Assembly (NCBI GenBank): GCA_025403435.1
Contig: CM046337.1
Span: forward strand, 4,657,501 to 4,721,500
Source of the DNA: Artocarpus heterophyllus
Lineage: Eukaryota > Streptophyta > Magnoliopsida > Rosales > Moraceae
Direction of reading: 5' to 3'
DNA: 64,000 nucleotides
This document shows, in pieces, positions 7,465 to 33,838 of this stretch (position 1 is the stretch's first letter; the number at the start of each line of letters is the position of its first letter). The position numbers and the translations under genes are program-made. The notes under the pieces were generated by a model. It was not told the DNA's origin and ran no database searches. It worked only from the letters and a program-made list of their open reading frames with translations.

Positions 7465-7485
7465 TTTTGGCACTAGGAGGAGGGC
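7465..7485 (+). promoter_or_regulatory. Probable primer-binding site of Tat element
   Basis: TTTTGGCACTAGGAGG directly follows the 5' LTR. Many Tat and Athila elements begin their interior with TTGGCGCC-like sequence matching a tRNA 3' end. Here it is degenerate, and the priming tRNA cannot be assigned. Confidence 0.5.
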
Positions 7486-7533
7486 GCCTACGCCTTCACC
7501 CAAACCTTAGCTACATCACCTCTAACGCCCGAG

Positions 7534-8870
7534 ATGACGACTCGAGGAAACGTCAGAGACGATACAACCCAACAGGAGGGGTCAGACGATGTAAGAAATA
7601 GGCAACCAAACATAGGTAGGCCTAGGGGACGTCCCCAGACCACGAGGTCCCGGTATGGGGGGCAAGGAAGCACGGCCAGGGCTGAGCCAGCAGATGCCTC
7701 GGCCGCTCAGGACCTGATCTGGGAACTCACGAACGTAGTGCGGATCCTAACGCAACAGCTCGCGCAGCAGGCTCAGCGCCAAGCTGCACCAGCTCTGCCA
7801 CCCTCAGCCCAGGTTGACCAGGCTAGAGGTCGGATAGAGCGAAGTGCAGCCGACCTTGAAGAAGCCCACTCTGAGCAGTCTGGAGGATCCATCCGTGGAA
7901 TCTCGGCCAATAATAGGTTGGTCCAGGAAGGTTGTCTTGGACGCTAAGCAGCTCGTGCTCCCTCGCCACAAGGTTCTAGAGCCTCGGTATTTGACCGGCT
8001 CGAGTCTCAAGGAGCAAACCAAAACCGCCAGCCGAGAGCTGGAGACCGTGTTGAGGGCGGAGTACCCTATAGGGTCAAACTACCCGAAGACACTAACAGC
8101 TGCCAGTTTCGGGCACTGCAGCGCCAAATCGACGAGATTCAAAATTGTTGATTTGGCCTAGACGAGACAGAAGCTCAAGACCCACCTTTCCCGGATAGCA
8201 TAATGCGGGCCCCTATGCCACCAAAGTTCAAGGTACCACAGATCAAGTCCTACGACGGGACGACAGACGCTGATGAGCATGTCGAACTCTTCCGGGGGCA
8301 CATGCTACTGCAGAACGCCAGCGACGCGGCGATGTGTAAAGCTTTTTCACTCACGCTTATGGGCCCTGCTTGGCAGTGGTTTCGACGACTCAAACCCGGA
8401 TCAATTTCTTCCTTTCGGCAGCTGGCTGACGCCTTCTCTTTGGCATTTTCCACAACCAAAACACGGAGGAAAGAAATAACACCTATATGCTGTCAAGCAG
8501 GGAGACGACAGCGTAAGGGATTACATTAACCGGTTTACCCGGGCAGCTCTCGAGGTCAAGCACGTCGAAGACGAGACCCTCAAACACATTTTTGTAGGGG
8601 GTCTCCGAGATGAAAAGCTGACCTGGTCTCTGGCCTTTGAGCAGCCGAGCACGTTTTCCCAAATGCTCGGATATGCCCAGAGACATGCTGACACTGCCGA
8701 ATATATGGAAAGCCGTCCGGAAGAAGCTGGCCCGAGCAGAACGAAGAAGGATAAGAAGCAGAAGAAAGCGCCGAAACAGAGCAGTGCTGAGTAGAGCAAG
8801 AAGTAGAAAAAAGAGAAAACCGAGAAGCCAAAGGGGCCGACCGAAAAGTTCCAAAGCTACACACCGTTAG
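7534..8870 (+). pseudogene. Tat element gag, frameshifted
   Basis: The reading begins at ATG 7534 with a basic, Gln/Ala-rich N-terminus, breaks near 7850-7950, and resumes at 8203. There a retrotransposon gag domain is recognisable (phrases FKVPQIKSYDG, GPAWQWFRRL, SFRQLADAF). The frame shifts again near 8450 and continues as DYINRFTRAALEVKH and VGGLRDEKLTWSLAFEQPS to a stop near 8795. The capsid-like core is therefore readable only across several frames. A degenerate zinc knuckle follows in the next ORF. Confidence 0.85.
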
Positions 8871-8950
8871 TGGCAACCATCGATGAGGTGCTCGCCTAGG
8901 TTAGTGGCAAGAATTTCCTAACACCACCACCCAAGCTTCGAGGGAGCAAG

Positions 8951-9829
8951 GTGAAGCGAAATCAGTCGAGGTTTTACGAGTTCCATAAGGATGTGGGGCA
9001 CAGTACACGGGAATGCATCCAACTGAAGGACCAAATAGAAAGACTAGCCCGAGAAGGTCATTTACAGGAATTTGTTGAGCGAGTTATAACCACGAGGTCT
9101 ACCTCAGAAAGGAATGATTTGTCGAGCCGAGACGTACAGAACCGTCCTAAAACCGACGCTAGGAACACCTTGGATCCCCCGAATATTGTTCATATGATAT
9201 TCGACAGGCCTGTTACCGGGGACACGTCGAGTGGGCGGCGATCGTATGTTAGAGAAGCTCGACGGATCGAGCAGGGTGAATTCATAAACATATCCGAGCA
9301 CATCAACAAGGTATGTCGCAAAGAAGACACCTCAATCACATTTACCGAGGAGGAAGCAGATCGATTAATGCACCCCCACAACGATGCCCTGGTGTACGAA
9401 CTGTCCATCGCCAACAACGTAGTACAGCGTGTCCTAATCGACAATAACAGTTCAGCCGACATCCTCTTCAAGCAAGCTTTTGACAGATTGAGGATAAGCA
9501 ACACCCCTCTGGTCCCGGTTCGGACCCCGCTTTATGGCTTCGCGGGGGAATGTGTCCGAGCTATTGGAAAGGTTGGTTTGCCCATGACCTTCGGAGAAGG
9601 AGCAGCTCGGGTCACTCGGGTTGTTGACTTTTTAGTCGTCGATAAACCATCGCAGTATAACATCATCATCGGCCAACCAACGCTGAACGCTTTGAAGGCC
9701 ATAGTGTCTACATATCACCTGGCCATGAAGTTCCCGACAGATGGCGGTGTTAGAGTGATCCGCTCATCCCAGGTGGATTCCCGAGCTTATTACGCCAATG
9801 CCGTGAGAGCAGCGTCAGCTCTCCACTAA
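8951..9829 (+). pseudogene. Tat element nucleocapsid remnant plus aspartic protease
   Basis: An open 292-residue stretch. Near the start RFYEFHKDVGHSTREC is a gag-type zinc knuckle whose first Cys has become Tyr. The retropepsin-like domain covers roughly residues 145-275. Its active-site loop reads LIDNNSSADIL where D-(T/N)-G-S-S is expected, so the catalytic Gly is lost. The region ends at a TAA immediately before the reverse transcriptase. This is the longest unbroken stretch of the decayed gag-pol. Confidence 0.85.
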
Positions 9830-9859
9830 GGCGTCTCGGCCATCTATTCGGTTGACGAA

Positions 9860-12800
9860 TTGGACCTCTCTACCGACTCGACACCCATGATGCTGGCAGA
9901 CTTAGACCCCAGATTGCCTGAGGAAGAGGTAAGAGTCACTCCGGTCGAAGACTTGGTGCTGTTCTTTCTAGACTCTGAAAGGCCTGAACGCACTGTCCAA
10001 CTCGGATCACAGCTGAGACCTGAGATCCGGGCCGACCTGAAAAGGCTCCTTACCGAATACCGAGACGTTTTTGCATGGTCTCATGAGGACATGCCTGGCA
10101 TTGACCCAAGCATCATTAGCTATCGACTCAACGTCCAACCTAGCCACAGGCTGGTGATACAGAAAAGGAAGGCTTTTAACTCGGAGTGGTACGCTGCAAT
10201 AAATGAGGAAGTCCAGAAACTCCTCAAGGCCAGATTCATCAGAGAAGTTAAATACCCGGAATGGTTAGCAAATTTTGTCCTCGTCAAAAAGGCGAACGGC
10301 AAATGGCGGGTCTGCATTGACTACACCGATCTCAACAAGGCCTGCCCAAAGGATTGCTTTCCACTTCCCCGGATAGATCAGCTCGTCAATGCCACTGTCG
10401 GCCATGAGCTTCTGAGCTTTATGGACACGTACTCTGGGTACAATCAGATAAAGATGGCCGAGGAAGACCAGGCGAAAATGGCCTTCGTTACCGACTAGGG
10501 ATTATACTGCTACGTGGTAATGCCTTTTGGCCTGAAGAACGCTGGGGCTACATACCAACGCCTCGTCAATAAGATGTTTGCTCAGCTGATCGGGAAAACG
10601 ATGGAGGTCTACGTGGACGACATGCTGTAAAATCAATCCAAGCAGAAGACCACATGGCCGATATCCGAGCAAGCTTCGACATTCTTCGTGAGTATGGGAT
10701 GAAACTCAACCCGACGAAGTGTGCCTTCGGTGTCAGCTCGGGTAAATTCCTCGAATTTTTGGTTAATTGGAGAGGCATCGAGGTCAACCTGGCAAAGGCC
10801 CAAGCGATTATTGATATGCATTTTCTTCGGACAACAAAAGACGTACAACGGCTCACTGGCATGGTGGCAGCTCTGTCAAGGTTTGTCTCTCGGGCTACCG
10901 ACAAGTGCCACCTATTTTTTAAGGCACTTAAGGGGAGGTTTGAGTGGAGCAGGGAGTGTGAGGAAGCTTTCCAAGGCCTGAAGACCTACTTAGCTACACC
11001 CCCGCTCATGTCCAAACCTTTGCCCGGCGAAGCTTTAACTGCGTATTTAGCCGTGTCAGAGAGAGCCGATAGCTCGGTCTTAGTTCGAGATGAGGACGGA
11101 GTTCAAAGGCCCGTTTACTACACAAGCCACGCATTCCAAGGCATCAAGGAGCGGTACCTGTCGTTGGAGAAGCTGGCTTTTGCTTTAATTACTTCGGTCT
11201 GAAAATTGTGTCCGTACTACTAAGGCCATACCATCAATGTCCCGACTAAATTTCCTCTTCGGCAGGTACTTCAGAGCCCAGAGATATCGGGCTGTATGAC
11301 CAAGTGGTCGGTAGAACTCGGCCAGTACGATGTGCATTTCATGCCGAGAACAGCCATCAAAGCTCAAGCCCTAGCGGATTTCATTGTTGAATTCATGGAT
11401 GCCGGACAAGCGACTCCACTTATTGAGAAGTCACCCATCAAAGTGCTCGATGCACCCAGCTGCAATGAGGACAGTCTTTCCCTAGAGTCGGACTAGAAAC
11501 TGCATGTCGACGGCTCTTCTTGCATCGACGGATCAGGCGCCGGGCTGATCTTAACCAGCCCAGACGGTTATAAGGTCATCTACGTCCTCCGATTTGACTT
11601 CAAGGCCTCCAACAATGAGGCAGAATACGAAGCCCTGCTGGCCGGGCTTCGGATTGCCCAAGATCTCGAGGTAAATCGCATCACCATCCACAACGACTCA
11701 ATGCTTGTGGTTCAGCAGGTCACTGGAGGGTTTCAGGCCCAAGCAGACTCCATGGCCGCATATTTGCAAGAAGTGAAACAACTACTCGGACAATTTAAGT
11801 CTTATTCTTTCAAGCAGATCCTCGGCTCAGAGAACGCGGAGGCCGACGCTGTTGCCCGACTAGCTTCCGGCTTGGGCAGAAGTGATTTAACTTCGGTCCC
11901 CATTGAAAGACTCATCGAGCCGAGTATCCTCAAGGAAGTTGTAAGCATAGCCAAAGAGCCCGAGACAACGTGGACGGACCCGATCATCCGATACCTAACC
12001 ACAACCGAATTACCCAACGACCGAGAAAAAGCAAGTCGGGTATGCAACAGTTTGGCCCGGTATTCGATGATCAGTGGAAGATTATACCGACGAGGCTACA
12101 CCACACCATGCCTGAGATGCTTGGATCCCGAAGAGGCCAAGTACCTAATAAGAGAGATCCACGAAAGACTATGCAGCAATCACTCCGGAGGATGCTCTTT
12201 GGCCCAAAAGTGCCTCCGACAGGGCTACTACTAGCCAACCATGCATTAGGACTGCGAAAATTTTGCTCAAAAATGTCTCAAATGCCAGCAATTTGCTAGA
12301 ATTCCTGGCTCTCACGCCGAGCCGCTCACTCTAGTGACTTCGACATGGCCATTTGCAAAGTGGGCCATCGACTTGATCAGACCCCTCCCTCTGGCCCGAT
12401 CATAATTCAAGTACTGCATCATGGCCATAGATTATCTTACCAAGTGGATCAAGGTTGAACCCTGTACCAACAAAACCGAAGCCAAGTGCACCAACTTCGT
12501 GTGGAAGAACATCATTTGCTGGTTCAGAATCCCGTACATGATTGTGACCTACAACGCGAAGCAGTTTGAATCTCTGGGTTTCCACGGCCTATGTGAGAGG
12601 CTCAACATTAGGAAGGTCTTCTCCTCCCCGAGCTACCCATAGAGTAATGGCCAGGTGGAGGCCGTGAACAAAACAATCAAAGACAACCTAAAGAAAAAAC
12701 TTGAGGGGCTTAAAGGTGCGTGGATTGACGAACTCCCACAAGTGCTCTGGGCATACCGAACAACTGCCTGGACAACGACTGGTGAAACACCGTTCTCCCT

Positions 12801-14129: not shown

Positions 14130-16672
14130 CTAAGCCTGGGTCTCGCCTCTGCCTCTGCCTCTGGCTGTGCTCTGCCCATCCCCATCATCATCGCCATCCA
14201 CCACGACGACCTCATCCTCCTTGCCCTGCTGCTGCTCGACAGCACCTTGATCGGGTTCGATAATGACTGACCAATCGAAGCCCACGGCCTCGGGGTGCTA
14301 CCCGATCAGATGTTCGCGAAGGTCGGTCATGTCGTAATAGTAGAGGTCGGCATATTCTGGGGATGCCTTGAGCTCGTCCACCGCTCGGGACAGACGCCCT
14401 GGTAGCTCATCCACAAGGTGCTGATGCTCGGCCTGGAGGGATGTCAGCTGTCATTTAAACCGTGCAGCTTCATCCTTCGCCTCTCTAGCCTGCCTCAAAG
14501 CCTCCTCGGCCTCGGCCTTAGCCTTCCGGGCTTCCTCTTGGGCCTAAGAAAGAGACTCCTGGGCCTGAGAGAGAGACTCTTTGGCTTGGTCTAGCTCAAT
14601 GTTCTTGGCATTGAGCTTCTTATCGGCATCCACCTTCTTAAGGAGGGTTTTCTTGTGCATCTCCTTCTCCTTATGGATGTCTTTCATCCCGGAGGAGTGC
14701 ACCATGTGCAGAACAACACTCATCTGCAAAGATTAAATGTCAGTGCTCGGTGGCATAATAAATGGGGAACTTAAATGACCGATTTGGACAAATTCTTATG
14801 GAGGCAGCGGCTTAGAAATCCGTATTGCAGAGACTCTGGAAGTCCTCTCCGCGGATATTCATAAAGAAGTCATCCTGAGGCATTGCGTCCCCGAGACGTT
14901 CGAGGACGATGCCGTGGTAGTTCGGGAGCCTTCTCTGCAGATCCTCAGACGAGCCCCTAGCCGTCTCGTCGACTGGCGTCACCTCCGGTGCATCCCTGGT
15001 CGGCTGTGGCGTGGCTGGCGGTGCTTGGACTGATGTGGAGACTTGCTTGGGGTGAGGGGGAAGCTCGGGCATGGGCGTCCGCTTACGCTTCTTTCCGGTC
15101 GCGATGGCCTTGCCCTTCTGCTTTCTTAGGCTCTCCATCAGAGCCCGTCTACTAGCGTGGGAGCTCGGCGCCGACGACATCTTTGCACAATGAAATCTCA
15201 AAGTCAAAACGAGGTTGGCAAAAAAGAAAAGGGAAAAACAAAAACAATACTCGGGGCTGACTTCCTATCCAGAGCTGGCGAGACGGGTATAGGAGCCGAA
15301 TCACGTCCTCGAGATCCTCATAGGCTATGGATGGCCCCGCATCGAAGGAGCCACTCAACGAGTCCTCAGAACTGGATGATGAAGGCTCCCTCGTTGGCCA
15401 CCCAGATCGAAAAGTGCTTGGTTTCGGGACGTTAGCGGCACCAGACCGAGCAATGGTAACCTGCCCGATACTTAGGGCAGGGCGGACTGCTTGGGGATTT
15501 ATTCTACTGGATTCTCCAAACCACCCATAACCGGATAAAGTGTCCTTCCTTAAAAGGAAGGACTGCTGTCTGGCCGACTCTAACTTTTCAAACAGTTCAT
15601 CGACCGCCCTGATCACGCGGCTCGGTGCCTAGGGACGCTTGGTCTACACATGCCCCTGCTCGAATGACCTCGGCACGTGTTGGTCTGCAGGGATGGTCTT
15701 ACCAGCTCGGGCTAGATAATTCCCCCTGACGTAGAACCATTCAAACTTTCAAAGTTTGTCCGAGTCGGGGTTGCCCAAGATGAAATCTTTTCGGAAGCCG
15801 GTGATGTAATACCAACCCTGTCGAGGAAGCTTCTTCATCTTGTACACTTACTTGAAAGCTTCCAGCGGCATCTCGGTGTCTCGGTGGTACCTCCATAATA
15901 TGTACATCCCGATCAGCGACCTGTAGCTGTTCGGGTTCAGTTGATTCGGGCACACGTTGAAATCATTAAGTGCCTGGCGGAGAAAGGGGTGGAACGGAAG
16001 ACGCAGCCCAGCCCTGAAGAACTCGACATAGAGCGTGATGCATCCTTTCAGTGCGTTTAAAGGTGAATCTCCCTCGTTGGGAACGGTAAGAGTCACGTCA
16101 CCCGAGATGCCGTACTCGACGCGTAGATTCTCCAGCCGTGACTCCGTGATGGCGCTTGTGTAGCTCGTCACTGAGGTTTGCCTGGGCCGGGTTACCCGAT
16201 ACGCCGTCACTCCTCGGACGCGGGTGACCTGGACCTCTTGCTCCATCTTCGGCTGCTCCGCCTCCACCTCCTCGGCTGCTTGTTCCTCATCGGAAACATC
16301 AACCATTATCACCCCCGCAACTTGTACTGGGGCTCCAGCGTCCCGACCAGATGTGCTCGGGGCATTCTCGCGCATTGGCATCTCGGCCCTCTCCCTTGGG
16401 AAAACTCAGGATGAGCCCATGGTAGCCTACTCGATATAAGGGTCCTGCTCCCTAGACAGCCTAATCAGCCTTTGCCCATCCAGCATATTCAAAAATTCCT
16501 GCTCGGGTACCATTTGGGAGTTGACCCTAAGGATTTGCTCGAGCCGGCCGGCTCCATCCCGTCCCGGAGGCACTTCCTCGGTGTCGGTTTGGGTGCTAGA
16601 TGAACTACTACTCTCTACACTACCGTCCGACCAAGAGACCTCTACATTTTAGGAATCGCTCAAATCACTCAT
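14130..16672 (-). pseudogene. Antisense ORF of the Tat element (PF04195-like), decayed
   Basis: Read on the minus strand from ATG 16672. The N-terminal part is Ser/Glu-rich. A domain resembling the 'putative gypsy type transposon' family follows (about 16180-15700; phrases LRLPFHPFLRQALNDFN and SYRSLIGMYILWRYH). Next are a Ser-rich part (15616-15255), a basic segment from 15180, a coiled-coil (about 14730-14420, many Ala, Glu and Lys) and an acidic tail near 14180. A likely intron lies at about 15251-15182 (CGA|GTATTG to GCAAAG|ATG). In-frame stops occur near 16651, 16436 and 15855, and later, so it is no longer intact. Such antisense ORFs are known in Retand/Grande/RIRE2-type elements; their role is unknown. 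Confidence 0.75.
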
Positions 16673-16818
16673 TTTGTCACCTCAAAGAAGTTACCTGCTC
16701 AGGTTCTCGGAAGCTCAGAGGAGATACAATCCTCGGGTATATAATTGTAGCTCGGCTGCTAAAACTCATCGGGTGCAAAAATTTTGAAAATGAAGTGAAA
16801 ATAACAAAGAGGATGGCC

Positions 16819-16828
16819 CTATTTATAG
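16819..16828 (-). promoter_or_regulatory. TATA box for the antisense ORF
   Basis: On the minus strand CTATAAATAG lies about 150 bases upstream of the antisense ATG. It is the same 10-mer as the sense TATA box in the LTR, so the element carries convergent promoters. Confidence 0.65.
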
Positions 16829-17040
16829 CCATTTCATGCGGAAATTCGGGCCCAAAAAACCAGGAGGCGTGATCATTACGCCTGTCAGGCGGCACAGACG
16901 GCCACAACATGACACTCATCCTCCGTCTGATCCGCGAGTCCTTTCGCCTCACTCCCCTTCGAAGCGTCGTTTGACCTTCTTTCTTTAAGCCGACCTCACC
17001 CACTCGGCATAGTCCACTCGGCTGAACACTAACCAGGTAA

Positions 17041-17053
17041 ACTGGGGGGCTAA
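17041..17053 (+). promoter_or_regulatory. Polypurine tract of Tat element
   Basis: ACTGGGGGGCTAA lies directly before the 3' LTR, the expected place for plus-strand DNA priming. Confidence 0.8.
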
Positions 17054-17687
17054 TGTTGAGGGTGAGCTCAGCGCCACCGCTGAGGAAATAAACTTTAGTG
17101 GTCGGCTAATGAGCTCGACAGAACACTGACAAGCTTGCTATCGGCCCTCGATGCATCATACACCTTTTCGAGGTGCCTCCCAGGCATCCAAGACTACGCC
17201 CCAAGTAGGCTGCCACCTCGGTATATACAGTAGCTCGGGTCGGTCCAATCTTACTCGCAAGTAGGCTGCTACTCGCCATTATAGGCCAACACAAGGCAGA
17301 TAACTCGCCGTTCGATGGAGTCCAATCCGTTAGACGAGGGGTGCGACACTTGTCAACTACTACCTGACACACCTTGATGTGACACCTGGGTAGTGGGTGA
17401 AACCCGCCTTACACCCGATCTAAGTGGTGGCCTATAAATAGGATGCATTTATGACATTCTAGAGAGAGACTTCTTCTTCACACCTAACTAGCTGTCGATC
17501 TCTGCTGAGCAACCCCTACCTTGAGCATCAGAGAACCCTTGTTTGTTAACCCACTTTTCTATTTTCTTCGAAGCATCACTCCTCTTGCAGGTGTGTCCGT
17601 TTGGGCAGGGGCAAATCCAAGGAGAGGTCAGACCATGCGCAGCCGCACGTGGTGTTGGTCTGACGTCGATCACGGTAAGCATCAACA
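17054..17687 (+). repeat. 3' LTR of Tat element
   Basis: 634 bases, starting TGTTGAGGG and ending AACA, with TATA box CTATAAATAG at 17432-17441. It is followed by the ATATG target duplication and the remainder of the older 5' LTR. Confidence 0.93.
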
Positions 17688-18836
17688 ATATGCATACAAA
17701 TAATGCTTGATAAGCAGTATTTTCTTGAGATCATGTATCCAATCCCATAGAGAGAAAATTGAGTAAGAAATTTCTATCTGTAATTGGGTTTTAGGTGTAA
17801 GAAAAATAACTAAGAGTGTAGTCATAACAATTTTTCACATAGTTAATTTTTCTCTAGTTGTCTTTGACAACGACCGTAGTCTTCTCTGGTTTAGGAGCTT
17901 TCTACATAAATCCTTGTGTTGTATTTTTTTAATTTCTCTATTTTTTCTTTATATTCTACAAAGGAGGTTCCTAGGAGGGAATTTTGTGATCTAAATTTCC
18001 TAACAAGTGGTATTAGAGCCTTGGTTCCTTGGTGTACAGTAATTTTGATAATGGACTTATAAGTTTTTTGCAAAGTTACTATTCATGTAGATAGTGAAAT
18101 ACGTATGTGAATTGTAAATTACTATTCAAAGGTACATTGGTACTATTCAAGAATATGGTGGTACTGTTCAACAATACAATTCCTTGAAAAAACTTAGAAC
18201 GATCCAAAGAAGCCATATCTGAAGCAGATATTTAAGAGGTTGTTTCAAATTGTGTTCAGTTTGAGGTGGAGAAATTTGATGAATAGATTTATATTGACTT
18301 GTGTTGAGTTCAAATCAACAGTAAGTTAATCTAGATTACATAAGGATTTGATGGTGTGGACACCTCAAAAAAATTGTCAGAAGGTGGAGCCGCCATGGCA
18401 AATTGCTTCAGGGTTAGTAAATGGAGATACTAATATTGTCGCTAACAATGGGTCTCTTTTCTCTATGAGAGACTGTGATGATCTTTTTGACTTGTTGCTA
18501 AAATCTTCAAGTTTTCATGAAAGAGGATGTGATATTGTTGGCGGATCCATAAGTTTACACAAGAGCATTGGTTGGCATTGATGCAAGGTGTGTGGTGGAA
18601 TTGATGTCGAGGCTGATGAACTTTTAGGAAAGCCAACATGAAAATTGTATCATAATTTTTCAGCAGGTTTATTTGGCATGTCCCAAGGTGAAATTCTTAG
18701 AAAGGTGGATTCTAAGTGTGTACACTCTTTATGGTGGAGTATGATAATTCTCTATGCTGAAAATTATGACTGTTGGTTTAAACAGTATTGCAGTGGTTAA
18801 AGCTATGTTTATTTATTTTTTAACCAAGGTGGAGAT

Positions 18837-19390
18837 TGTTGAAATTGATTAAAAAATAAATAGTAAAAAGCGATGTGCAACCAATATGAACGTTAAAAAC
18901 AGTGTGCTACAGGTGTGAACGTCAAGGATAGTGAGCTATCAATGTGATTGCTAGAAGGAAGAAGGGAAGGATTGGAAACTATAAATACCCCATCCCCTTT
19001 AGTTATTTAGCATCCCAAGGAGAAGAGAATATCTCTTAAGCGTGTAGAATATTGTGGGGGCATTTGGCTCCTCAATATGGGTACGAATAATGCTTGGTAA
19101 GGAGTGTTTTTTGGGATCATGTATTTAATCCCATAGAAAGAAAATTGAGTAAGCAATTTTTTGGGTGTAATTAGGTTTTGGATGTGAGGAAAATTACCGA
19201 GAATATGGTTGTAACAATTTTCCATATAGTAAATTTTTCTCTAGTTGTGTTTGACAACGACCATGGTTTTTCACTGGTTTAAGAGTTTTCCACATAAATC
19301 CTCGTGTTGTATTTTAAGTTCTTTATTGCTCTTTGATATTTTGCAAAGGAGGATCCTAGCATGAAATTTTGTGATCCAAACTTCCGAACG
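18837..19390 (+). repeat. 3' LTR of the non-autonomous element
   Basis: It starts TGTTGAAATTG, contains ACTATAAATACC and ends CCGAACG, followed by the TTTCT duplication. It is colinear with 6591-6829 plus 17693-18005, which shows exactly where the Tat element inserted. Confidence 0.82.
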
Positions 19391-19394
19391 TTTC

Positions 19395-20215
19395 TTCTAC
19401 AATAAGAATTACTGCCCTTTAATTGATGAATAGAATTCAATAATTACAAGAAAAATAGATTAAACCAAGAACAGGAACGAAAGCGTTCAAAGAACAATTA
19501 CATTTTTAAAAAAGATAAATCATGGACAATTTTCCTCCATCCATGGTAGAAAAGATAATATAATCTGCTCAAGACAACCTAAAAAATCTTATTATACTCT
19601 TTAATGGATGAATATTGGGATAAAAAATTAAGTTAAAATATTAGGTAGAAAAAATTCCTCAAAATTAAAAAAAAAAAGAAGATAAATAATGCAAAGAACA
19701 GTCACATAAAAAAAATAGAGGCACAAAAAATTTTTGGGGGTTTGATAACTTCCATACATGATGGCAGAAATTAAGACAATTATTATCAACTAAGAAAAAG
19801 TAGGAAATCTTATTGATCATCTTTTAATCGATCAATGGAATTCGATAATTTCAACTTTTTTTAAAAAAATAGATTTATTATTTTCTTAAGAAAAAAACTA
19901 AGACATATAATTTCCCTACATCTATGACGAAAGGACAATAATTTAATTTGTTAAACAAAATCAAGAAATATTATTACACACTTTAATCGATATTAGATTC
20001 AAGATTTCCCAGGAAAATTATATTAGGCAAGAATAAAAATAAAATAATTTAAAAACAATTATACACAAAAATTAGATGCACAAACCCCTTAAAAAAATTA
20101 GATGCACTAATAGTTTTTGATATTCAACAATTTGCCTACATTGATCGACAAAATAATAATAATAATAATAATAAACTAATCAATAAATTCAATTGCTTAA
20201 AGATACTCACTTTTC
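19395..20215. repeat. Degenerate tandem array, right part
   Basis: Continuation of the 5190-6540 array, with the recurring phrase near 19523, 19740, 19901 and 20123 (spacing 217, 161, 222). The stretch around 19900-20060 is closely similar to 6280-6420. An AAT microsatellite lies at about 20152-20173. Confidence 0.72.
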
Positions 20216-23243: not shown

Positions 23244-23307
23244 CTTTATATTTTTTAATTTCATACTTTTCGTAGTATCCTTAATTTTTTTTCTTTTAAA
23301 TAAATAC

Positions 23308-25281
23308 TGTGACACCCGTTATTCTCCTAACGGGTATTGAGGTAATTAAATTAATTTTTAATGTATAAAAAAAATTGCTTCATTTAAATTTATTTTATAA
23401 TATTTATTTTTATCTATTTTTAAATTTTCTAAAATTCTCCTATATTTATTTAGTATGATTACTAAAAAGCCTTAGAACTTCTAATAAATCTCAAAAATGT
23501 CATATTGGCATTATGTGTGTTAAAGTCTTTAGATGAGACATAAGGATATCTTTTCCAACTACTCTTGACCCTCATTTTCTTTATTTCATCCGTGACATGC
23601 TTCAACATGTCTCCTCTATAATTGTTTCTATCACTTCTTTTCAAAGACTTCATCTTTTCTTCCTTTCTCTTCCACGGTTCCCACACTCTTCTTCTCATTT
23701 CTTTGCTGAAGCAAAATACTTAGAGAACTTCTTCAAGGCAGCCATAAAAATCAGCCACCATCACCTCCATTTGAGCAAGAATTTCAGTCATACCGAAGTA
23801 AAGGAACCTGTTTTGAAGCCATTTCAAGCTTCCAACTAACCATAATCCGAGGTTAGAATCTTATGAACAAATTTAGTCTTTCATTTATAAATTTTCTTTT
23901 ATACTAAAGGATTATTCAAATTTGCGTTCTTAAACCTAAGTATATGTTTGTTGCTATTTTGGAGCATATGTATGAAGTCTAAGTGTATATGCCCTAGACA
24001 GAAAATTTATATTGTTAAACTTTATAATACCTCTATGGGCAGTGGTTATTTCTTGAAATTCTAAGATTAAATTAAAATAAATTTTATGAATGTAGTTGTA
24101 TGTTGTGCTTTAGTTTTAATTGTCCTTATGCACGCCTTAGGATCAAGGGAGTATGGAGCTAACGTTAATTGATTCCAGGATTAAGAGACTGTTGATAAGC
24201 TTGAAAGGTAGGGATTCTATTACTCATCTTTTGTGAGGTTTTTATAGAATTAAAATTGATTGTTTTGCCGCAATATATATATATCTATGTTGAACTGATA
24301 TTATATGTGTATCACATATGAAACTATGACATGGACTCGTCTTGTATTGTACGGCGAGGAACATAATGAATTGACACATGTTATAAATTGAGAAGCATGG
24401 TTAGGAAAATTAACTCTATTAATAATGATTTAATATAGAGAAATTGTGAGACATGAAAAGGGCGACGGTTACGTCCTTGGGCATGAATACCCTAAAAGGT
24501 AAAATAGGGGGAAGGTGATGACGCTTCCTTGGGTTGAAAGTCCCAGAACACACTGTACAGGAATTGATTTGGTGAGGACTCGGGGCTTGATGTCCCCTCA
24601 CCGGAACACCCTTGGAATGTTTATAGGGTGATCAAGTGCGCCCATTTGGGTTTCGATGAGTTGAGTGATACTCAATTTAACATGGATACCTAGGAACAAT
24701 GATGATTGGTAATATTTGTATAAATGTGTAATTATGACACTTGGTAATGATTAACTACGGTATCCATAAGATGTGATCATAATAAACCTCATAATCTGAA
24801 ATATGATGTGACTTACTGACCATGCAGATTTTAATGTGGTAATGATAAAAACCTAAAGGTGAGTAATGGCTTTCTCTACTGAGCATAGTGTTGCTCATTC
24901 CCTTATGTTTATATCTTTTCAGGACTCACTAAGTGTGAGGTGGCTACGAGAAATATAGTTGAGGAAGTGATGTAGCTATATTACATTGGGACTGCTTCAA
25001 TCGTTGAGAATGTTCTTCATGATAATGTAAGCATCAATTGTTACTTTCTGTGACTGTATTACAATGTGTTGAGGGTTAAAATGATGATGACAACAGTTTA
25101 TATTATTAAATTTAAGGTGCTACATTAAAACTGTGGTTTATTTATCGTTTATATTTTTATTTTTGAGTTGAGAGTTTTCATTTAAGTCCCGGGCAAATTT
25201 TAATCTTTAAGGTTTTACTTTTATTATTTATTTTTATTTTATCTCATTAAAAACTGTTAACCCCCATATAGGGGCGTTACA
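23308..25281 (+). repeat. 5' LTR of cargo-bearing element
   Basis: 1974 bases. The first 30 bases form an inverted repeat (ACCCGTTA, six-base loop, TAACGGGT). The last 30 hold another, CCCCCATATAGGGG. TATA-like sites occur at about 24380 and 24718. Short frames in it (60-80 residues) recur exactly in the 3' LTR and have no recognisable domains. Confidence 0.93.
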
Positions 25282-25290
25282 GAATTTTTG

Positions 25291-25303
25291 GTATCAGAGC
25301 CTA
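25291..25303 (+). promoter_or_regulatory. Primer-binding site (initiator-Met tRNA)
   Basis: TGGTATCAGAGCC lies about nine bases after the 5' LTR. It is the standard plant PBS complementary to the 3' end of initiator methionine tRNA. Confidence 0.88.
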
Positions 25304-26238
25304 GGTTCGGTTAACCTAGGGAGTGTAGCACCACTTTAAAAATATATTTTTGAGATGGTTTTGAAGCTGAATTTTCATTGTCATCATCAAAATGAACCTT
25401 CACATTGATTTATACAGTCTAGAAGGATGTAACATGGAAAGGCCATAGAATGAAAATATCAATAGTTATATGAGGAAATTATATATTGTATAAGTAGAAT
25501 TGTGGGGATTGTAGATGTTCTTAAGTAGTAACATCAAGTGTCTTTGTTCACTGATATGGTCTACGTTGAAAGACGTAAATCGTATTGATTTCAAGGTTAG
25601 TCGCATTCTAAACCCTTGGTAGTAATGATGATGAATCCATTGATAGATGTTGAGTATTAGGAATAACATATGGGTGTATGCATTGTTCAATAAGGTTTTG
25701 ATTAAAACAAAATATTTGAGTTGCTGGAAGATTATGTTGTTATGAAATGATTTTAAATATCATTCAGGAAGATCCTTGTTGTCGTTAAATTAGATTTGTT
25801 GTTCATAGTTAACTTTATCTATAGTGGGCTTTAAATTGGGTTTAAGATTTATACAAATTGGTTTTCAATTTTATGTTTGTTATTTAACTCGTTCTAAATG
25901 TGTTAAGGCCCGAAACAACCTGACCATTTTCAACTAAGAACATTTGGGCCTAGTTTAAATCCTAAATCAGTTTGATTCACACTGTCTCTCCCACGTGGTC
26001 TCTATACGTGTCATATACAGTGGTTTAATTAATGTTTACAAATACGTTTACTGTGCATAGGAGCTTATTTCTCCGAGTTCACTTTTTCTCTCTTAATTTG
26101 TTATTTTCTCTCTAAATCGCAAATCCTCTTCTTTCTCATTAAAAATTCTTCTTTTCCTCTAAAAGAAGAAGGAATTCTAGGATTCTACAATTTACTATCT
26201 TAATTTTTCTTTTCTATTTACTCTTCTTTCATCTCATC
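25304..26238 (+). other. Leader of the cargo-bearing element
   Basis: About 930 bases between PBS and first ORF, where gag would normally start. No gag-like frame was seen. The last 150 bases are pyrimidine-rich (many TTCTCTC and CTTTTC), like a leader or a 3' splice region. Confidence 0.6.
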
Positions 26239-26760
26239 ATGGACCCAAAGTACCAACACCTGAGAAAGTATTTCCCATCACTCTCCCAAAAGATTCTTAG
26301 AAAGAAATACAAGGCTAGAATTACTCGGTTGTGGATTCTTATGCGTTTTGGCATCCCTTGTGATGTGAGAATGTTAATAGAGGGGAAAATCCGTCCGAGT
26401 GACTTTAGTCAAGATGTCGGTTTACCAGGAACAGGTACCAGTCGTAGTGCAATGAAAAGAAGAGCTCGTGCCATCGTGGTCACTTGTAACAAATGTGGAA
26501 GACAAAATTGTAACGGTAAATGTACTTCACCTGGTTATATGTCTACGAATAGAGAGGATAAAATAAGGTTTTGTAGGGATGGACTTTCAAAGGAGAACTT
26601 GGATAGCATCCATCCTCCTCTCCACGGTCACCCTAGTGGATATGTTCAAGGAGCTATTTTTAAACTCTGGCCTAAATTTTATACAGAAAGACAACGCCTC
26701 AGGAATATGGTATTTCTAGATCCTGTTTGCCAAGCCATAAGAAAACTGGATGGGGAATAA
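26239..26760 (+). CDS. Betaflexivirus-like Cys-rich nucleic-acid-binding protein carried by the LTR element
   Basis: Intact 173-residue ORF from ATG 26239 (context ATCATGG). The N-terminal 30 residues are very basic. Residues 30-45 are hydrophobic (LWILMRFGIPCDV). A basic patch KRRARA at 73-78 leads into a Cys cluster C83-x2-C86-x4-C91-x3-C95 resembling a zinc-binding knuckle, then PGY and an Arg/Phe-rich stretch (KIRFCRDG). This order (helix ending 'IP.DV', KRRAR, Cys cluster, 'RF...G') matches the nucleic-acid-binding proteins of Betaflexiviridae (carla- and vitivirus type), which bind RNA and suppress silencing. Residues 115-173 are extra and not recognised. The assignment is by eye and needs a profile search. 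The ORF is the first of two in an LTR element lacking gag-pol. Possible roles are cargo that shields element RNA from silencing or packages it (inference). No break is seen. Confidence 0.62.
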   Translation: MDPKYQHLRKYFPSLSQKILRKKYKARITRLWILMRFGIPCDVRMLIEGKIRPSDFSQDVGLPGTGTSRSAMKRRARAIVVTCNKCGRQNCNGKCTSPGYMSTNREDKIRFCRDGLSKENLDSIHPPLHGHPSGYVQGAIFKLWPKFYTERQRLRNMVFLDPVCQAIRKLDGE

Positions 26761-27402
26761 GTCATCGCACTATAAAGGTTATTTAGTCTTTGCTTATTTG
26801 AAGCAGTTTTAGCTGATGTTCAACAGTTTGTGTTTTTCTTTTACTCAAAATATTTGCTTTTGTGTTTGAAATAATTGTGATTATTAGATTGATACAGTAA
26901 GTGTTAATATCTTATTTAATTTATGATTTTCTTAAATATATATATAATAAAATATATTATCTTATCAGACACGTCACATACGGTACAGTAATATGTTTGA
27001 ATTTTGAAAAGCTTATCCAGATATTTCAAGATTGTGTCTCAAATTTCAAAAGTTCTACAGTATTTGTCGTTTATATTAAATTTCTAGACTTGGTGTATAT
27101 TTGTCAAAAAGTCTACAGTTGTGTCATGAGGGTCTTCTGTCAAATTGTTCTCAATTGTCAAAAGTTATACAATTAGAGTCTAATCTTTTTCAAAAAGTGA
27201 ATCAGATTTTCTGTAAACTATCAATCACCTTATCTTACTTTCTTATCCGCACAAGATTTTGTTTAAATCTTTGGATTACCTTTTCATTACCTACTCGTCT
27301 ATCTCTTTAGCCCTTTTTGTATATTTCTCATCTTTAAAAACTCATGTAGAACCCGAAGTCTAAGTGGAGCAGACATTAAGCAACCACTTCTATAAACCAA
27401 AT
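26761..27402 (+). other. Spacer between the two cargo ORFs
   Basis: 642 AT-rich bases with no recognised domain. The second ORF would need splicing, a separate promoter or internal initiation to be translated. TATA-like ATATATATAATAAAATATA lies near 26936. Confidence 0.5.
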
Positions 27403-28053
27403 ATGTCTACCTCCCAGTCCACGAAGAAAATAAAGAATGTCTGTGTCTTTTGTGGTTCCAGCCTTGGAAAAGATAAAGCTTATTTAGAAGCTGCAAATCA
27501 CTTAGGGCAAGTCCTAGCACGCAAAAAGATTAACATAATCTATGGGGGTGGTAGTATAAAAATGATGGTAAATATGGCACTAGCAGCTAGGTCTAGTGAC
27601 GCTACTGATGTAAGAATTTGGCCTCATATTCCAGTTGAAGGAAACCTTTGTAAGGAAGCCATAGGTAAGGGAGAAGGAGTCAGGAGTATCCCTAAAAATT
27701 TTAAAGACATAATCTATAATTCCGATGCTTTTATAGCATTACCTGGTGGTCTAGGTACTCTTGAGGAAATATTTATAGTTGCTTGTGGGCAATTGTTGGG
27801 CTTTTATTCCAAACCTTTGGGTCTGCTGAACGTAAAGGGTTTTTATGACGGTCTTTTGAAATTTCTAGATTACGCTGTGGAAGAAAACATCACTACAGAA
27901 TCGGAGAGACAAATCTTTGTCACTGCTTCAACAGCTGAGGAATTGATAGATAAAATGCAAATCATACATCCAGAATCCGACACTGCAACATCCAAGCTTG
28001 AATGGGAAAGGGAAAGCCGGGAGCGGCCAATTGATTTGAATCTCCATCTGTAA
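27403..28053 (+). CDS. LOG-like cytokinin riboside 5'-monophosphate phosphoribohydrolase homologue, intronless cargo
   Basis: 216 residues from ATG 27403; an in-frame GTG lies upstream but the ATG is preferred. The fold signature of LONELY GUY enzymes is clear: VCVFCGSSLGKD (13-24), IIYGGGS (45-51), DAFIALPGGLGTLEE (108-122), KPLGLLNVKGFYDGLL (137-152). LOG enzymes cleave cytokinin nucleotides to active free bases in the cytosol. Differences matter. The usual Arg-Lys pair before the helix leading to the PGG motif is not seen (IPKNFKDIIYNSDAF). The PGGYGT Tyr is Leu. GGGSVGLMG is GGGSIKMMV. The Glu after PGG.GT remains. Activity is therefore uncertain. Plant LOG genes normally have several introns; this copy has none, suggesting capture via RNA. 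C-terminus ends DLNLHL. Family membership is secure; function is not. Confidence 0.88.
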   Translation: MSTSQSTKKIKNVCVFCGSSLGKDKAYLEAANHLGQVLARKKINIIYGGGSIKMMVNMALAARSSDATDVRIWPHIPVEGNLCKEAIGKGEGVRSIPKNFKDIIYNSDAFIALPGGLGTLEEIFIVACGQLLGFYSKPLGLLNVKGFYDGLLKFLDYAVEENITTESERQIFVTASTAEELIDKMQIIHPESDTATSKLEWERESRERPIDLNLHL

Positions 28054-28192
28054 TCTTTTTGTTTTATCTTTGGCATGTAGGCATGTGTGTCTGTATTTCG
28101 TGTGTTACGAATAACCGTTTGCCTTGTATTCTGTGTTTCTTGTGGTACGTCGTTGTTCAATCTTTTAGATTCATTGAGCCTAATGCCGGGAT

Positions 28193-28336
28193 GGCTGGAT
28201 ACGGAGTACTTGATGCTCTCGAAACGCATCCTTCTTAAGGTCCGATCTTTTGTTTATCGATGTTTTTGTATCCTCTAAGCATGCATGATATGGATAGCTG
28301 GTATACGGAGTGCCTTGTACTCTCGAAACGTATCCG
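28193..28336 (+). repeat. Duplicated motif downstream of the LOG-like ORF
   Basis: AGCTGGTATACGGAGT(GC)CTTG and CTCTCGAAACGTATCC recur in two near-copies at 28193-28231 and 28296-28336, spaced by about 103 bases, in otherwise AT-rich non-coding DNA. Confidence 0.7.
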
Positions 28337-28903
28337 TATTATGTTTGTAATGTGTAATATTCTGTTAATATTATGTGGAAGTACCAGAGTCAGTTATGAG
28401 GATATTCCATATGAAATATGAGTATATTATTTGGATTGAATGTTTGTGTCATGAGGATAGCTGTTTAATGAAAAATATGCCGGGTATGTTTGCAACTCTG
28501 AGATTCCGTTTAATATCTCTATGAGTAAGTTTAATGTATAGTTTTGAATAAAAGTGTTTGTGATATATGTTTTATGATTATGTTCTAGTTTATTAGTTGA
28601 GGTATGAAATCAAATATATTTGACTTTTCCTTACTCAAAAAGGAAAAGGAACCTAAAGATGAAGTATATAAAATTTCTCTGGCAATCTCCTTAAATGTAA
28701 TTGTAAATCACAGTCCATGGACAATGAAGGACTGGAATCATGGTATGGTCAATATGTATGCCTGATCAGATTCTTAGACTATTATACGGTGTTACAAGTT
28801 GAAACTTGTCAGAAATACTCTTATTGAAGGATTTAGGAGTAAGATTTATTATGCAAGTAAATAAGTGGAGATACGATGACTTAAATTTCGAGGACGAAAT
28901 TTC

Positions 28904-28920
28904 TTTAAGGGGGGTAGAGC
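28904..28920 (+). promoter_or_regulatory. Polypurine tract of cargo-bearing element
   Basis: TTTAAGGGGGGTAGAGC lies immediately before the 3' LTR and is preceded by AATTTCGAGGACGAAATTTC, the usual pre-PPT phrase of Tekay/Del elements. Confidence 0.85.
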
Positions 28921-30894
28921 TGTGACACCCGTTATTCTCCTAACGGGTATTGAGGTAATTAAATTAATTTTTAATGTATAAAAAAAATTGCTTCATTTAA
29001 ATTTATTTTATAATATTTATTTTTATCTATTTTTAAATTTTCTAAAATTCTCCTATATTTATTTAGTATGATTACTAAAAAGCCTTAGAACTTCTAATAA
29101 ATCTCAAAAATGTCATATTGGCATTATGTGTGTTAAAGTCTTTAGATGAGACATAAGGATATCTTTTCCAACTACTCTTGACCCTCATTTTCTTTATTTC
29201 ATCCGTGACATGCTTCAACATGTCTCCTCTATAATTGTTTCTATCACTTCTTTTCAAAGACTTCATCTTTTCTTCCTTTCTCTTCCACGGTTCCCACACT
29301 CTTCTTCTCATTTCTTTGCTGAAGCAAAATACTTAGAGAACTTCTTCAAGGCAGCCATAAAAATCAGCCACCATCACCTCCATTTGAGCAAGAATTTCAG
29401 TCATACCGAAGTAAAGGAACCTGTTTTGAAGCCATTTCAAGCTTCCAACTAACCATAATCCGAGGTTAGAATCTTATGAACAAATTTAGTCTTTCATTTA
29501 TAAATTTTCTTTTATACTAAAGGATTATTCAAATTTGCGTTCTTAAACCTAAGTATATGTTTGTTGCTATTTTGGAGCATATGTATGAAGTCTAAGTGTA
29601 TATGCCCTAGACAGAAAATTTATATTGTTAAACTTTATAATACCTCTATGGGCAGTGGTTATTTCTTGAAATTCTAAGATTAAATTAAAATAAATTTTAT
29701 GAATGTAGTTGTATGTTGTGCTTTAGTTTTAATTGTCCTTATGCACGCCTTAGGATCAAGGGAGTATGGAGCTAACGTTAATTGATTCCAGGATTAAGAG
29801 ACTGTTGATAAGCTTGAAAGGTAGGGATTCTATTACTCATCTTTTGTGAGGTTTTTATAGAATTAAAATTGATTGTTTTGCCGCAATATATATATATCTA
29901 TGTTGAACTGATATTATATGTGTATCACATATGAAACTATGACATGGACTCGTCTTGTATTGTACGGCGAGGAACATAATGAATTGACACATGTTATAAA
30001 TTGAGAAGCATGGTTAGGAAAATTAACTCTATTAATAATGATTTAATATAGAGAAATTGTGAGACATGAAAAGGGCGACGGTTACGTCCTTGGGCATGAA
30101 TACCCTAAAAGGTAAAATAGGGGGAAGGTGATGACGCTTCCTTGGGTTGAAAGTCCCAGAACACACTGTACAGGAATTGATTTGGTGAGGACTCGGGGCT
30201 TGATGTCCCCTCACCGGAACACCCTTGGAATGTTTATAGGGTGATCAAGTGCGCCCATTTGGGTTTCGATGAGTTGAGTGATACTCAATTTAACATGGAT
30301 ACCTAGGAACAATGATGATTGGTAATATTTGTATAAATGTGTAATTATGACACTTGGTAATGATTAACTACGGTATCCATAAGATGTGATCATAATAAAC
30401 CTCATAATCTGAAATATGATGTGACTTACTGACCATGCAGATTTTAATGTGGTAATGATAAAAACCTAAAGGTGAGTAATGGCTTTCTCTACTGAGCATA
30501 GTGTTGCTCATTCCCTTATGTTTATATCTTTTCAGGACTCACTAAGTGTGAGGTGGCTACGAGAAATATAGTTGAGGAAGTGATGTAGCTATATTACATT
30601 GGGACTGCTTCAATCGTTGAGAATGTTCTTCATGATAATGTAAGCATCAATTGTTACTTTCTGTGACTGTATTACAATGTGTTGAGGGTTAAAATGATGA
30701 TGACAACAGTTTATATTATTAAATTTAAGGTGCTACATTAAAACTGTGGTTTATTTATCGTTTATATTTTTATTTTTGAGTTGAGAGTTTTCATTTAAGT
30801 CCCGGGCAAATTTTAATCTTTAAGGTTTTACTTTTATTATTTATTTTTATTTTATCTCATTAAAAACTGTTAACCCCCATATAGGGGCGTTACA
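28921..30894 (+). repeat. 3' LTR of cargo-bearing element
   Basis: Same length as the 5' LTR and apparently identical throughout. It is followed by the AATAC duplication. Confidence 0.93.
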
Positions 30895-30899
30895 AATAC

Positions 30900-32041: not shown

Positions 32042-33094
32042 TCAGGAAGAGCTAGATCCCACTGCCCTCCAGAGCCTAACCCAATCCACCATGGCTTCGG
32101 CTGCCCGACCAAATACAGGATCCACCTTCCCAAGCTGCTCCTTCACTTCTTTCGCGACCTCGATCACACAATCCTCTGCTTTTACCATCGTTCGCTTTAA
32201 CCTCAGCGCCTGGAAGAAAGGAACCACTTCCTCCATCAGCTTCACCCCTTCCCACTCTTTTCTCAGGCTGTCTATAGCATTGCCCCTTTCTGTTCTCCAT
32301 ACATATGGCAGCCCACTTTTCACTCCAAAACCAAGATGATCACAAACAACCTTTGCGCACATCCCAGACCAAATATCTTCCATTGTTTCCCACCTGAACT
32401 TTCCCTCTCCTGCCAACTTCAAAGCTGGAAATAAAGCCGGCCCGACCAACTCACGATCGAAAGCAATGTTGATTCCGCTCAAAGGCATCAAGGCCCTAGC
32501 TGGAACAGTCATCACAGCGTCCACATATCGTGAGTTCCTCTGCTCTGGTTTGAGAGCTTGTGTTGGTGCATCATAGTCGGCCAAGTTGAGCCACAGTCCA
32601 CATGACAGAGCACATTGAACCCCACTCCGCAGGCTAAAGGGGTAGCCACGAACAAAGTCTGCTCCCTTTCGGTAAGGATCATAAAGTGTGTTGAAAAAGA
32701 AAGGAGTGGCCGGGGTTGCCAGGTTGACGACATGCTGGGCCACGATATCCACTAAAGAGCCATCCTTGTCCTTGGCTGGGAGACAATCATCATCCACAGA
32801 GACAATGTACTTCTTCCGGGACACAAGGAAGCCAAAATACCGGCATGAGTAACCATAGAAGAGAATTGAAGAGGAACCCACCAACCGGTCTATGTCAGTT
32901 TTTGTATAGATATCCACGTTAAAGCCTGCTGGTATTTTGAGTTCCTCTTTCAAATCAGGTTCTTTGACTATAATCAGGTGGAACCGAGAAAAAACTGGCC
33001 TCCAATCATTCATGAACACCGTCAGGTCAGAGCGGAGGGCGCCAATCACAATGTCAATCTCATCATCCTTGATGTTAATGTTTGAATGAGACAT
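32042..33094 (-). CDS. RGP5: Reversibly glycosylated polypeptide / UDP-arabinopyranose mutase, class 2 (RGP5-like)
   Basis: Uninterrupted 350-residue ORF from ATG 33094 to TGA 32042. Family hallmarks are in order: EIDIVIGAL (12-20), KIPAGFNVDIYTKTD (53-67), SCRYFGFLVSRKKYIVSVDDDC with the DDD metal/nucleotide motif at 101-103, FFFNTLYDPY (132-141), DFVRGYPFSLR (146-156), which contains the conserved Arg region used in self-glycosylation, and LPYVWR. RGP proteins interconvert UDP-arabinopyranose and UDP-arabinofuranose for cell-wall polysaccharides at the cytosolic face of the Golgi. The sequence resembles the RGP5-type class 2 members, whose mutase activity is less certain than that of class 1. 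The upstream 33100-34300 region probably holds 5' UTR and promoter. Confidence 0.93.
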   Translation of the reverse strand: MSHSNINIKDDEIDIVIGALRSDLTVFMNDWRPVFSRFHLIIVKEPDLKEELKIPAGFNVDIYTKTDIDRLVGSSSILFYGYSCRYFGFLVSRKKYIVSVDDDCLPAKDKDGSLVDIVAQHVVNLATPATPFFFNTLYDPYRKGADFVRGYPFSLRSGVQCALSCGLWLNLADYDAPTQALKPEQRNSRYVDAVMTVPARALMPLSGINIAFDRELVGPALFPALKLAGEGKFRWETMEDIWSGMCAKVVCDHLGFGVKSGLPYVWRTERGNAIDSLRKEWEGVKLMEEVVPFFQALRLKRTMVKAEDCVIEVAKEVKEQLGKVDPVFGRAAEAMVDWVRLWRAVGSSSS

Positions 33095-33838
33095 CTTTCA
33101 ACCAATTTAGAAGAAACAACAAAAAGAAAAACCTGTGCGGCCTTGATCTCTGTGTCAAAACGTTATGAATTGTTCCTCAAGCAATTACGATCAAGTTTAG
33201 AATCTTTCCGAACACCCTGAAACGAAGTTTCAATGTCAGAAGCCGAGTGCTAAAATATTGGCTCAAAGCATAAAGCAAAGACAATAAAGTGCCAAAACTA
33301 TCGATCAGAATGCTAGACAAGAGAAATTTTCAGTCACAACATACTAGTTGGAAGTACAGGATCAACAAGTGGCTGGATATTAAGTGACCGGATTAGTGCA
33401 AGGACTTCATCTTTGCCAGTTGCAATGAACAGCTTTAGAACTTTCTCGTTTAGCTTTCCAGCTCTCAACGTTTTCTACACGTATGAAAAGATTTGCTACC
33501 ATATAAAAGAGGGAAAAAGAAAGAAAGGGATAGAGTACTCGCATGAGTTATAGTCACAAGAATCAACAGGAAAAAAAAAAAGCGTAAATAGCAAGAAGAT
33601 CAAAGTTCAAATTCATTGGGTGTGTGCTTTGTTGTTCAATTCTTTATAAATTGACGTGGGATCATATGCCTGAAATATGTAAGAAATCAATGTCCAAACT
33701 TCATATTTCAAGCAAATAAGAAAAGTTCTCCCCTAAAGAATAGATCATGAACTAGCAGTAAATCTACATAGAGTTCAAATTCCCAATCTCAAGTCCTTTT
33801 AAAAAAAAAAGGATTTAATACCTAATTTCCACCAAGAA

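Follow-up and report, generated by a model that had tools for sequence, protein, structure and literature searches.

A very large jackfruit LTR retrotransposon family, without gag-pol in the copies examined, carries genes for a virus-like cysteine-rich protein and a LOG-fold protein with a possible role against host defense

The stretch analyzed here, called the window throughout, comprises 64,000 nucleotides of the jackfruit (Artocarpus heterophyllus) genome (assembly GCA_025403435.1, contig CM046337.1, positions 4,657,501 to 4,721,500 of the forward strand). At its positions 23308–30894 lies a long terminal repeat (LTR) retrotransposon in which the structural marks of an LTR element, namely two LTRs, target-site duplications, a primer binding site (PBS) and a polypurine tract (PPT), are present, as they are in other copies. 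A complete element of this kind had been proposed in the original prediction, and its identical LTRs, duplications, PBS and PPT were all confirmed. The interior carries two open reading frames (ORFs), of which ORF1 encodes a cysteine-rich protein (CRP) and ORF2 a LOG-fold protein:

23303–23307, unstranded: 5′ target-site duplication AATAC, identified by sequence comparison
23308–25281, forward strand: 5′ LTR of 1974 bp, TGTGACACC...GTTACA, with 0 differences from the 3′ LTR over 1974 positions
25289–25300, forward strand: PBS TGGTATCAGAGC, its sole occurrence in the window
26239–26760, forward strand: ORF1, encoding a 173-amino-acid Cys-rich basic protein resembling Viral_NABP and Carla_C4
26485–26523, forward strand: C-x2-C-x4-C-x3-C cluster of ORF1 (C83, C86, C91, C95), following the basic patch KRRAR
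27403–28053, forward strand: ORF2, encoding a 216-amino-acid LOG-fold protein (Lysine_decarbox PF03641, TIGR00730)
27688–27702, forward strand: I-P-K-N-F of ORF2 in the position of the M-x-x-R-K motif, with Asn instead of the presumed catalytic Arg
27742–27768, forward strand: phosphate-binding motif PGGLGTLEE of ORF2, retained
28027–28050, forward strand: C-terminal tail PIDLNLHL of ORF2, with an EAR-like LxLxL at the very end
28907–28920, forward strand: PPT region AAGGGGGGTAGAGC, adjoining the 3′ LTR
28921–30894, forward strand: 3′ LTR of 1974 bp, identical to the 5′ LTR
30895–30899, unstranded: 3′ target-site duplication AATAC, identified by sequence comparison

The PBS TGGTATCAGAGC begins 7 bases beyond the 5′ LTR and is presumably of the initiator-Met type; the PPT AAGGGGGG is located at 28907. 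We take the termini to be Tekay/Del-like from the LTR ends and the surroundings of the PBS and PPT, the element itself being without pol. The absence of differences between the LTRs sets a 95% upper limit of approximately 0.0015 substitutions per site, which at a plant substitution rate of 1.3e-8 makes the insertion younger than roughly 60,000 years. In the family the interior typically measures about 4.26 kb, and the window copy is shorter: it is without two parts of approximately 525 and 88 bases that are found in typical copies and that hold no long ORF. Between ORF2 and the PPT, at 28199–28341 on the forward strand, stand two diverged 39-base direct repeats that are 79% alike.

The two ORFs are the only long ATG-to-stop sense ORFs of the interior, and neither is part of gag-pol. 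They alone exceed chance length: none of 2000 first-order Markov simulations of the interior, read on the sense strand, reached 173 amino acids, the longest simulated ORF having 170. From 44 stop-to-stop frames of at least 35 amino acids that were listed, eleven besides the two ORFs were scanned against Pfam, and no match to gag, protease, reverse transcriptase (RT), RNase H, integrase or chromodomain was obtained in any of the eleven; there were two chance-level matches (E 0.07–0.1), and a 40-amino-acid frame at the PPT was without Pfam match. The ORF list and the Pfam scans thus bear out the earlier claim that the element encloses two intact sense ORFs only, neither of them derived from retroelement genes.

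The element belongs to a very large LTR family, the examined copies of which are without gag-pol and carry two accessory genes. In the genome searched (985 Mb in 334 contigs), an exact 32-base word from ORF1 occurs 2,788 times (1,341 forward and 1,447 reverse) and an exact 32-base word across the junction of PPT and 3′ LTR 1,853 times (874 forward and 979 reverse), the reversed control giving 0 in both cases. The original prediction had named a single-copy interior and ORFs without profile match as outcomes that would speak against it, and what was found is the opposite on both counts. A 901-base query over ORF1 returned 2,562 first-look candidates, and all 40 that were scored were full length at 99–100% identity. 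Of the other 39 scored copies, which are top matches to the ORF1 region, 20 were fetched; ORF1 is intact in all 20 and ORF2 in 19, and a 5′ LTR stands at a distance that accommodates only the cargo in 18, none being seen in L010 and L011. Exact 5-base target duplications flank nine of the ten copies checked, with one mismatch in the remaining copy (for L016 the 5′ and 3′ flanks were read in two separate extractions). Since these copies have their own exact duplications, their insertions are independent. LTR pairs were partly comparable in 17 copies and are 99.6–100% identical, ten of them at 100%.

A second sample was chosen on one contig (C1) by the exact 3′ junction, cargo not being a criterion; the exact-junction requirement biases this sample toward copies with little-decayed ends. 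In 44 of the 47 exact junctions on this contig the ORF1 word lies 2,183–2,387 bases upstream on the same strand, and of the other three, two have a mismatched ORF1 (one of them gapped) and the third is broken by an N run, so that ORF1 sequence stands upstream of 46 of the 47, with one interrupted by N. Two pieces of 401 bases were read at each of the first 20 junctions: the one where ORF2 is expected aligns to ORF2 in all cases, at 91.8–99.3% identity with no indels or in-frame stops, and the one at the expected 5′ end holds the LTR end and leader, likewise in all 20. The LTR-to-LTR span in these 20 copies is therefore that of the cargo alone and leaves no room for gag-pol. Of the 1,853 exact junctions, these 20 were read at both ends, and no partner supplying the enzymes was present among them. 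No autonomous ancestor was found either, and the replacement of gag-pol by cargo, as the original prediction had it, would be one way in which the family may have arisen. L061, at first a candidate for a junction without cargo and a possible partner, is a 3′ end of the family interrupted by an N run.

Three other accounts of the locus were rejected. An assembly chimera is ruled out by the independent copies with their own duplications, and host-gene capture (transduction) by one lone element copy by the copy number, the recurring pair of genes and the non-host affiliation of the LOG protein. The idea that a separate cargo element had inserted itself into this one was set aside as well, no repeat pair being seen that delimits both genes as an insert.

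ORF1 belongs, through intermediates and judged by sequence profiles, to the Carla_C4/Viral_NABP family (PF01623, PF05515), which includes the CRPs of carla-, allexi- and mandariviruses. The first ORF1 search gave 15 matches, identity to the PF01623-bearing members being 43–60%; a profile alignment built from these 15 was used for a second search, which gave 855 matches, of which the best 120 were listed. At E ≤ 0.1 (best 3.5e-07), Carla_C4 is matched by 14 of the 16 aligned members and Viral_NABP by 13 of them, the similarity covering the basic patch and the Cys cluster, and one relative (P0149) exceeds both Pfam cut-offs. The earlier claim of a virus-like Cys-rich protein was thus borne out via these relatives, whose source names include Hibiscus, Populus, Xanthoceras, Acer, Rhamnella and Orobanche. 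The CX2CX4CX3C spacing is found in 103 of the 125 CRP family members listed and a KKR or KRR basic patch in 116 of them. ORF1 departs from 5 of 59 family-invariant columns, as counted with P0001 left out. A separate analysis of the CRP used 30 relatives and the window protein. Unlike the viral CRPs, the plant family has its own conserved blocks at the N- and C-terminus and is encoded by retrotransposons, here and in the contig DAIEQH010000041.1 (L001). There, an ORF for a gypsy integrase (rve, 2.4e-16) is followed about 200 bases on by an intact 182-amino-acid ORF1 relative that exceeds the PF05515 cut-off. In one case or more, then, a relative of ORF1 is encoded as a 3′ extra ORF in a gypsy element that has pol. 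The integrase has no chromodomain match at E ≤ 0.01, and from its features we take the L001 element to be Athila-like. The contig is binned as Candidatus Nomurabacteria and its content is of plant type, so plant DNA has probably contaminated a bacterial bin here; a word near its position 1690 is faintly similar, by eye, to the 39-base repeat of the jackfruit element. In six scans of viral contigs no relatives could be confirmed, and the phage collection gave none. Nothing credible was obtained as a PDB match for the CRP profile.

Viral CRPs suppress RNA silencing, according to the part of the literature consulted (PMC12172455), and by resemblance ORF1 may bind zinc and RNA and may suppress silencing as well. 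One could alternatively regard ORF1 as a partial substitute for Gag that coats the element RNA and packages it into helper particles, silencing suppression being secondary or absent. The basic patch and the zinc-knuckle-like Cys cluster would suit such a role, the element encodes no other RNA-binding protein, and ORF1 is the least diverged of five interior parts compared, in a comparison that is biased in its favor. However, the profile similarity is to the viral Carla_C4 and Viral_NABP families, with zf-CCHC and Gag families absent among the matches, and in L001 the CRP gene follows the integrase and is thus extra to an element that bears pol. We regard a Gag-like function as very unlikely.

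The fold of ORF2 is that of LOG proteins (match to 2a33, E 1.4e-16; model pLDDT 75), and together with the Lysine_decarbox and TIGR00730 matches this upholds the LOG homology proposed before. The NF058542 equivalog model of NCBIfam is uninformative for plant LOGs: ORF2 scores 85.6 bits against a cut-off of 300, and the host-type P0130 also fails with 131.4. The LOG relatives considered were the best 120 of 5,291 matches, comprising 115 non-host and 5 host-type sequences; 44 of the 120 were used for the profile alignment. ORF2 lies outside the host LOG clade (5 rows, support 100/100). Its placement within the non-host group is unsure, with a branch length of 1.39 and neighbors that vary between trees, the first of which omitted P0017, P0018, P0061, P0107, P0117 and P0127, and the second of which comprised 40 of the 120 matches and one Arabidopsis fragment.

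That ORF2 acts as an ordinary cytokinin enzyme, as originally supposed, now appears unlikely. For CgLOG, the consulted part of the structural literature proposes Arg99 and Glu122 as catalytic and places Met96 and Lys100 at the adenine (PMC4979012); these residues were located in plant LOGs via the M-x-x-R-K motif, CgLOG itself not being aligned. The place of the catalytic Arg is Asn in all 41 copies checked (20 rows of the fetched sample and 21 of the junction-chosen sample), and in two ORF2 copies the third residue of I-P-K-N-F is Ile. In the same loop Met is changed to Ile and Lys to Phe, GLMG has become KMMV and Trp129 has become Gly. Altogether 19 of 69 family-invariant columns are altered in ORF2, ten of these lying between residues 53 and 77. 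The Glu corresponding to Glu122 is kept in the window protein. From these substitutions, ORF2 has likely lost catalysis and would be a pseudoenzyme. An active LOG enzyme could instead raise cytokinin and cell division in host tissue and so multiply the cells that bear the element. The fold and the PGGxGTxxE motif are retained, Arg is kept in 113 of 121 aligned LOG rows (host rows included), and a growth theme would suit both genes, since the viral CRP p12 of CVB is reported, in the consulted part of the same source, to be a transcription factor that causes hyperplasia (PMC12172455). Against this stand the Asn in all copies checked, the other altered sites, and the fact that even the relatives have mostly replaced the adenine-binding Lys (by L, M or I in 102 of 121 rows). 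We consider cytokinin production by the element distinctly unlikely.

What ORF2 does share with its non-host relatives is the C-terminus. An exact LxLxL end with at least three basic residues in the preceding 12 is found in 87 of the 115 non-host LOGs and in none of the 5 host-type ones; among non-host LOGs of 214–230 amino acids the LxLxL tail is present in 81 of 85, and within the jackfruit family DLNLHL is kept in 20 of 20 rows. Tails such as LDLSLRL and PIDLNLHL fit the EAR pattern LxLxL (PMC6479872). Effectors from other plant parasites are reported to bind TOPLESS via such motifs, and the ORF2 tail may likewise recruit TOPLESS. Some LOG predictions from Xanthoceras (P0017, P0018, P0127) are long and without the EAR-like tail, and P0017 and P0018 resemble fused or duplicated LOG units.

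The explanation we put forward is that of a gag-pol-free family copied in trans and equipped with a silencing-suppressor CRP and a TOPLESS-recruiting LOG pseudoenzyme; in our judgment the chances for and against it are evenly balanced. The element would be copied by the proteins of a chromovirus-type element, the CRP would suppress RNA silencing directed at it, and the LOG-fold protein, probably an inactive enzyme, would use its C-terminal tail to recruit co-repressors of the TOPLESS type, so that the two genes together would help the element past host control. Because the catalytic place is changed and the tail is kept, a repressor-recruiting scaffold is favored over cytokinin production, and as far as functions can be predicted from sequence, the combination of suppressor and pseudoenzyme fits the data better.

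Several observations weigh against this explanation. No partner element was found in the copies read. Taken alone, the window ORF1 stays under the Pfam cut-offs of the two viral families, with 16.3 bits where 23 are required and 13 bits where 20.9 are required, and its structure model is poor (pLDDT 54.7). In the ORF2 model the tail and two loops have low confidence, one of these loops adjoining the catalytic place. As for the tail, 28 of the 115 non-host rows are without LxLxL (24 of them outside 214–230 amino acids), the window protein has a weaker basic stretch before it, and LxLxL arises in 2–21% of trials when a single tail is shuffled, so that the motif rests on its conservation in the family; a retrotransposon context is established for a minority at most of the 115 non-host LOGs. 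Both copy samples are also biased, the fetched copies, as top matches to the CRP region, toward conservation of the CRP, and the junction-chosen ones toward little-decayed ends. In the latter sample, the ratio of amino-acid to synonymous variation per site (pN/pS) of ORF2 is 0.61 (17 synonymous and 36 amino-acid variants, n = 20, p 0.065), which is not clearly below 1; for shared variants only, it is 0.47 (p 0.075).

This last result bears on a further possibility, namely that a single capture brought the genes into an efficiently mobilized LTR backbone, which has since carried them through its copying as passengers useless to the element. The amplification is recent, as the near-identity of the LTR pairs in the 17 copies indicates, so that the ORFs may be undecayed for lack of time; the pN/pS of LOG in the junction-chosen sample agrees with it, and variants present in single copies look near neutral. 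Variation among the fetched copies and the window gives a pN/pS of 0.27 for ORF1 (21 rows; 5 synonymous and 5 amino-acid variants) and 0.40 for ORF2 (20 rows, L022 being omitted because of gaps; 15 and 21 variants). By contrast with what passive copying would lead one to expect, variants common to several copies are poor in amino-acid changes, with 3 synonymous and 0 amino-acid variants in ORF1 and 6 and 5 in ORF2 (pN/pS 0.24). Divergence from the window is 0.22 per 100 bases in ORF1, a value biased low because ORF1 belonged to the search query, 0.85 in ORF2 and 1.17–2.2 in the non-coding interior. Moreover, both protein families are kept at 40–60% identity far outside this genome, which youth does not explain. 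Purifying selection on ORF2 is likely, short of proof, and we think it unlikely that the two genes are mere passengers.

A broader form of the explanation would hold that the CRP and LOG genes constitute a counter-defense module common to several Ty3/gypsy lineages. Both families occur in Populus and Xanthoceras, by source names, and the longest contigs of the LOG cluster P0065 and the CRP cluster P0149 both measure 8,723 bases, which suggests that they may be one contig. That a family of two to three thousand copies is the gag-pol-free carrier of a pair circulating among Ty3/gypsy elements, made up of a suppressor and a dead-LOG scaffold for EAR-dependent TOPLESS binding, is a tentative proposal that we consider rather doubtful in this full form.

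LOG-like ORFs in Gypsy elements are already known, so that the original view of the cargo pair as undescribed is half right. Steinbauerova is said to have reported, in 2011, two Athila-like elements with similarity to LOGL4. The YgdH/LOG-like domains published for Gypsy elements of Citrus and Populus resemble the present case in that a LOG-family protein is encoded inside a Gypsy-type LTR element, and Populus LOG sequences share the non-host LOG group with ORF2; those elements were found by their RT, whereas the jackfruit family is without gag-pol, and a second gene, an EAR-like tail and a missing Arg are undescribed in the parts consulted of that paper (PMC9289625). Among the matches listed from the open-licence PMC text searched, none reports retrotransposons with the CRP family, the CRP and LOG pair or an EAR tail on LOG, and nothing relevant turned up among those listed for an EAR motif combined with LOG or with a retrotransposon, so that the pair itself has stood as unreported in that literature. 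LARD and TR-GAG elements are alike in their LTRs, PBS, PPT, high copy number and lack of a complete gag-pol. LARDs are not known to conserve any coding capacity, and TR-GAG elements retain gag, in contrast to the sampled copies here, which keep two non-gag genes. The 5′ additional ORFs of Tekay elements in sunflower and grasses encode a conserved accessory protein suggested, in the text consulted, to modulate RNA silencing, but they are added to gag-pol elements, and their disorder and DRBM-like structure are, by description, unlike CRP or LOG (PMC11728184). AlkB-bearing Gypsy elements of Phalaenopsis likewise have an additional enzyme-type ORF, of a domain that occurs in Alpha- and Betaflexiviridae too; they differ in being 25 kb long, in having demethylase activity shown and in the one extra gene reported in the consulted part of the source (PMC9289625).

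Elsewhere in the window, a decayed second Ty3/gypsy element lies at 7477–12299 on the forward strand, with an RT fragment (RVT_1) and an RNase-H-like RVT_3 in separate frames, and repeats link 6270–7462 with 17054–20055. Minus-strand ORFs occupy 14812–17105, where 15848–16405 matches Transposase_28 (‘putative gypsy type transposon’). A host gene for a reversibly glycosylated polypeptide stands about 1.2 kb from the element (32045–33097, reverse strand), and a host sugar transporter gene of at least two exons is found at 49914–51235 on the forward strand.

How retrotransposons survive host silencing at high copy number is an open question. Non-autonomous elements are usually assumed to be without useful cargo, and here an abundant one keeps two conserved accessory genes, so that one can ask here, in a naturally occurring case, whether a family can be sustained by accessory genes alone. 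With the EAR-like tail there is a concrete and testable reason, other than cytokinin, for the presence of LOG genes in plant retrotransposons, and the CRP is a protein family that links retrotransposons and plant RNA viruses. If the tentative proposal of a circulating counter-defense pair is true, the jackfruit family would be the transposon analogue of a satellite that bears only the immune-evasion genes of its helper.

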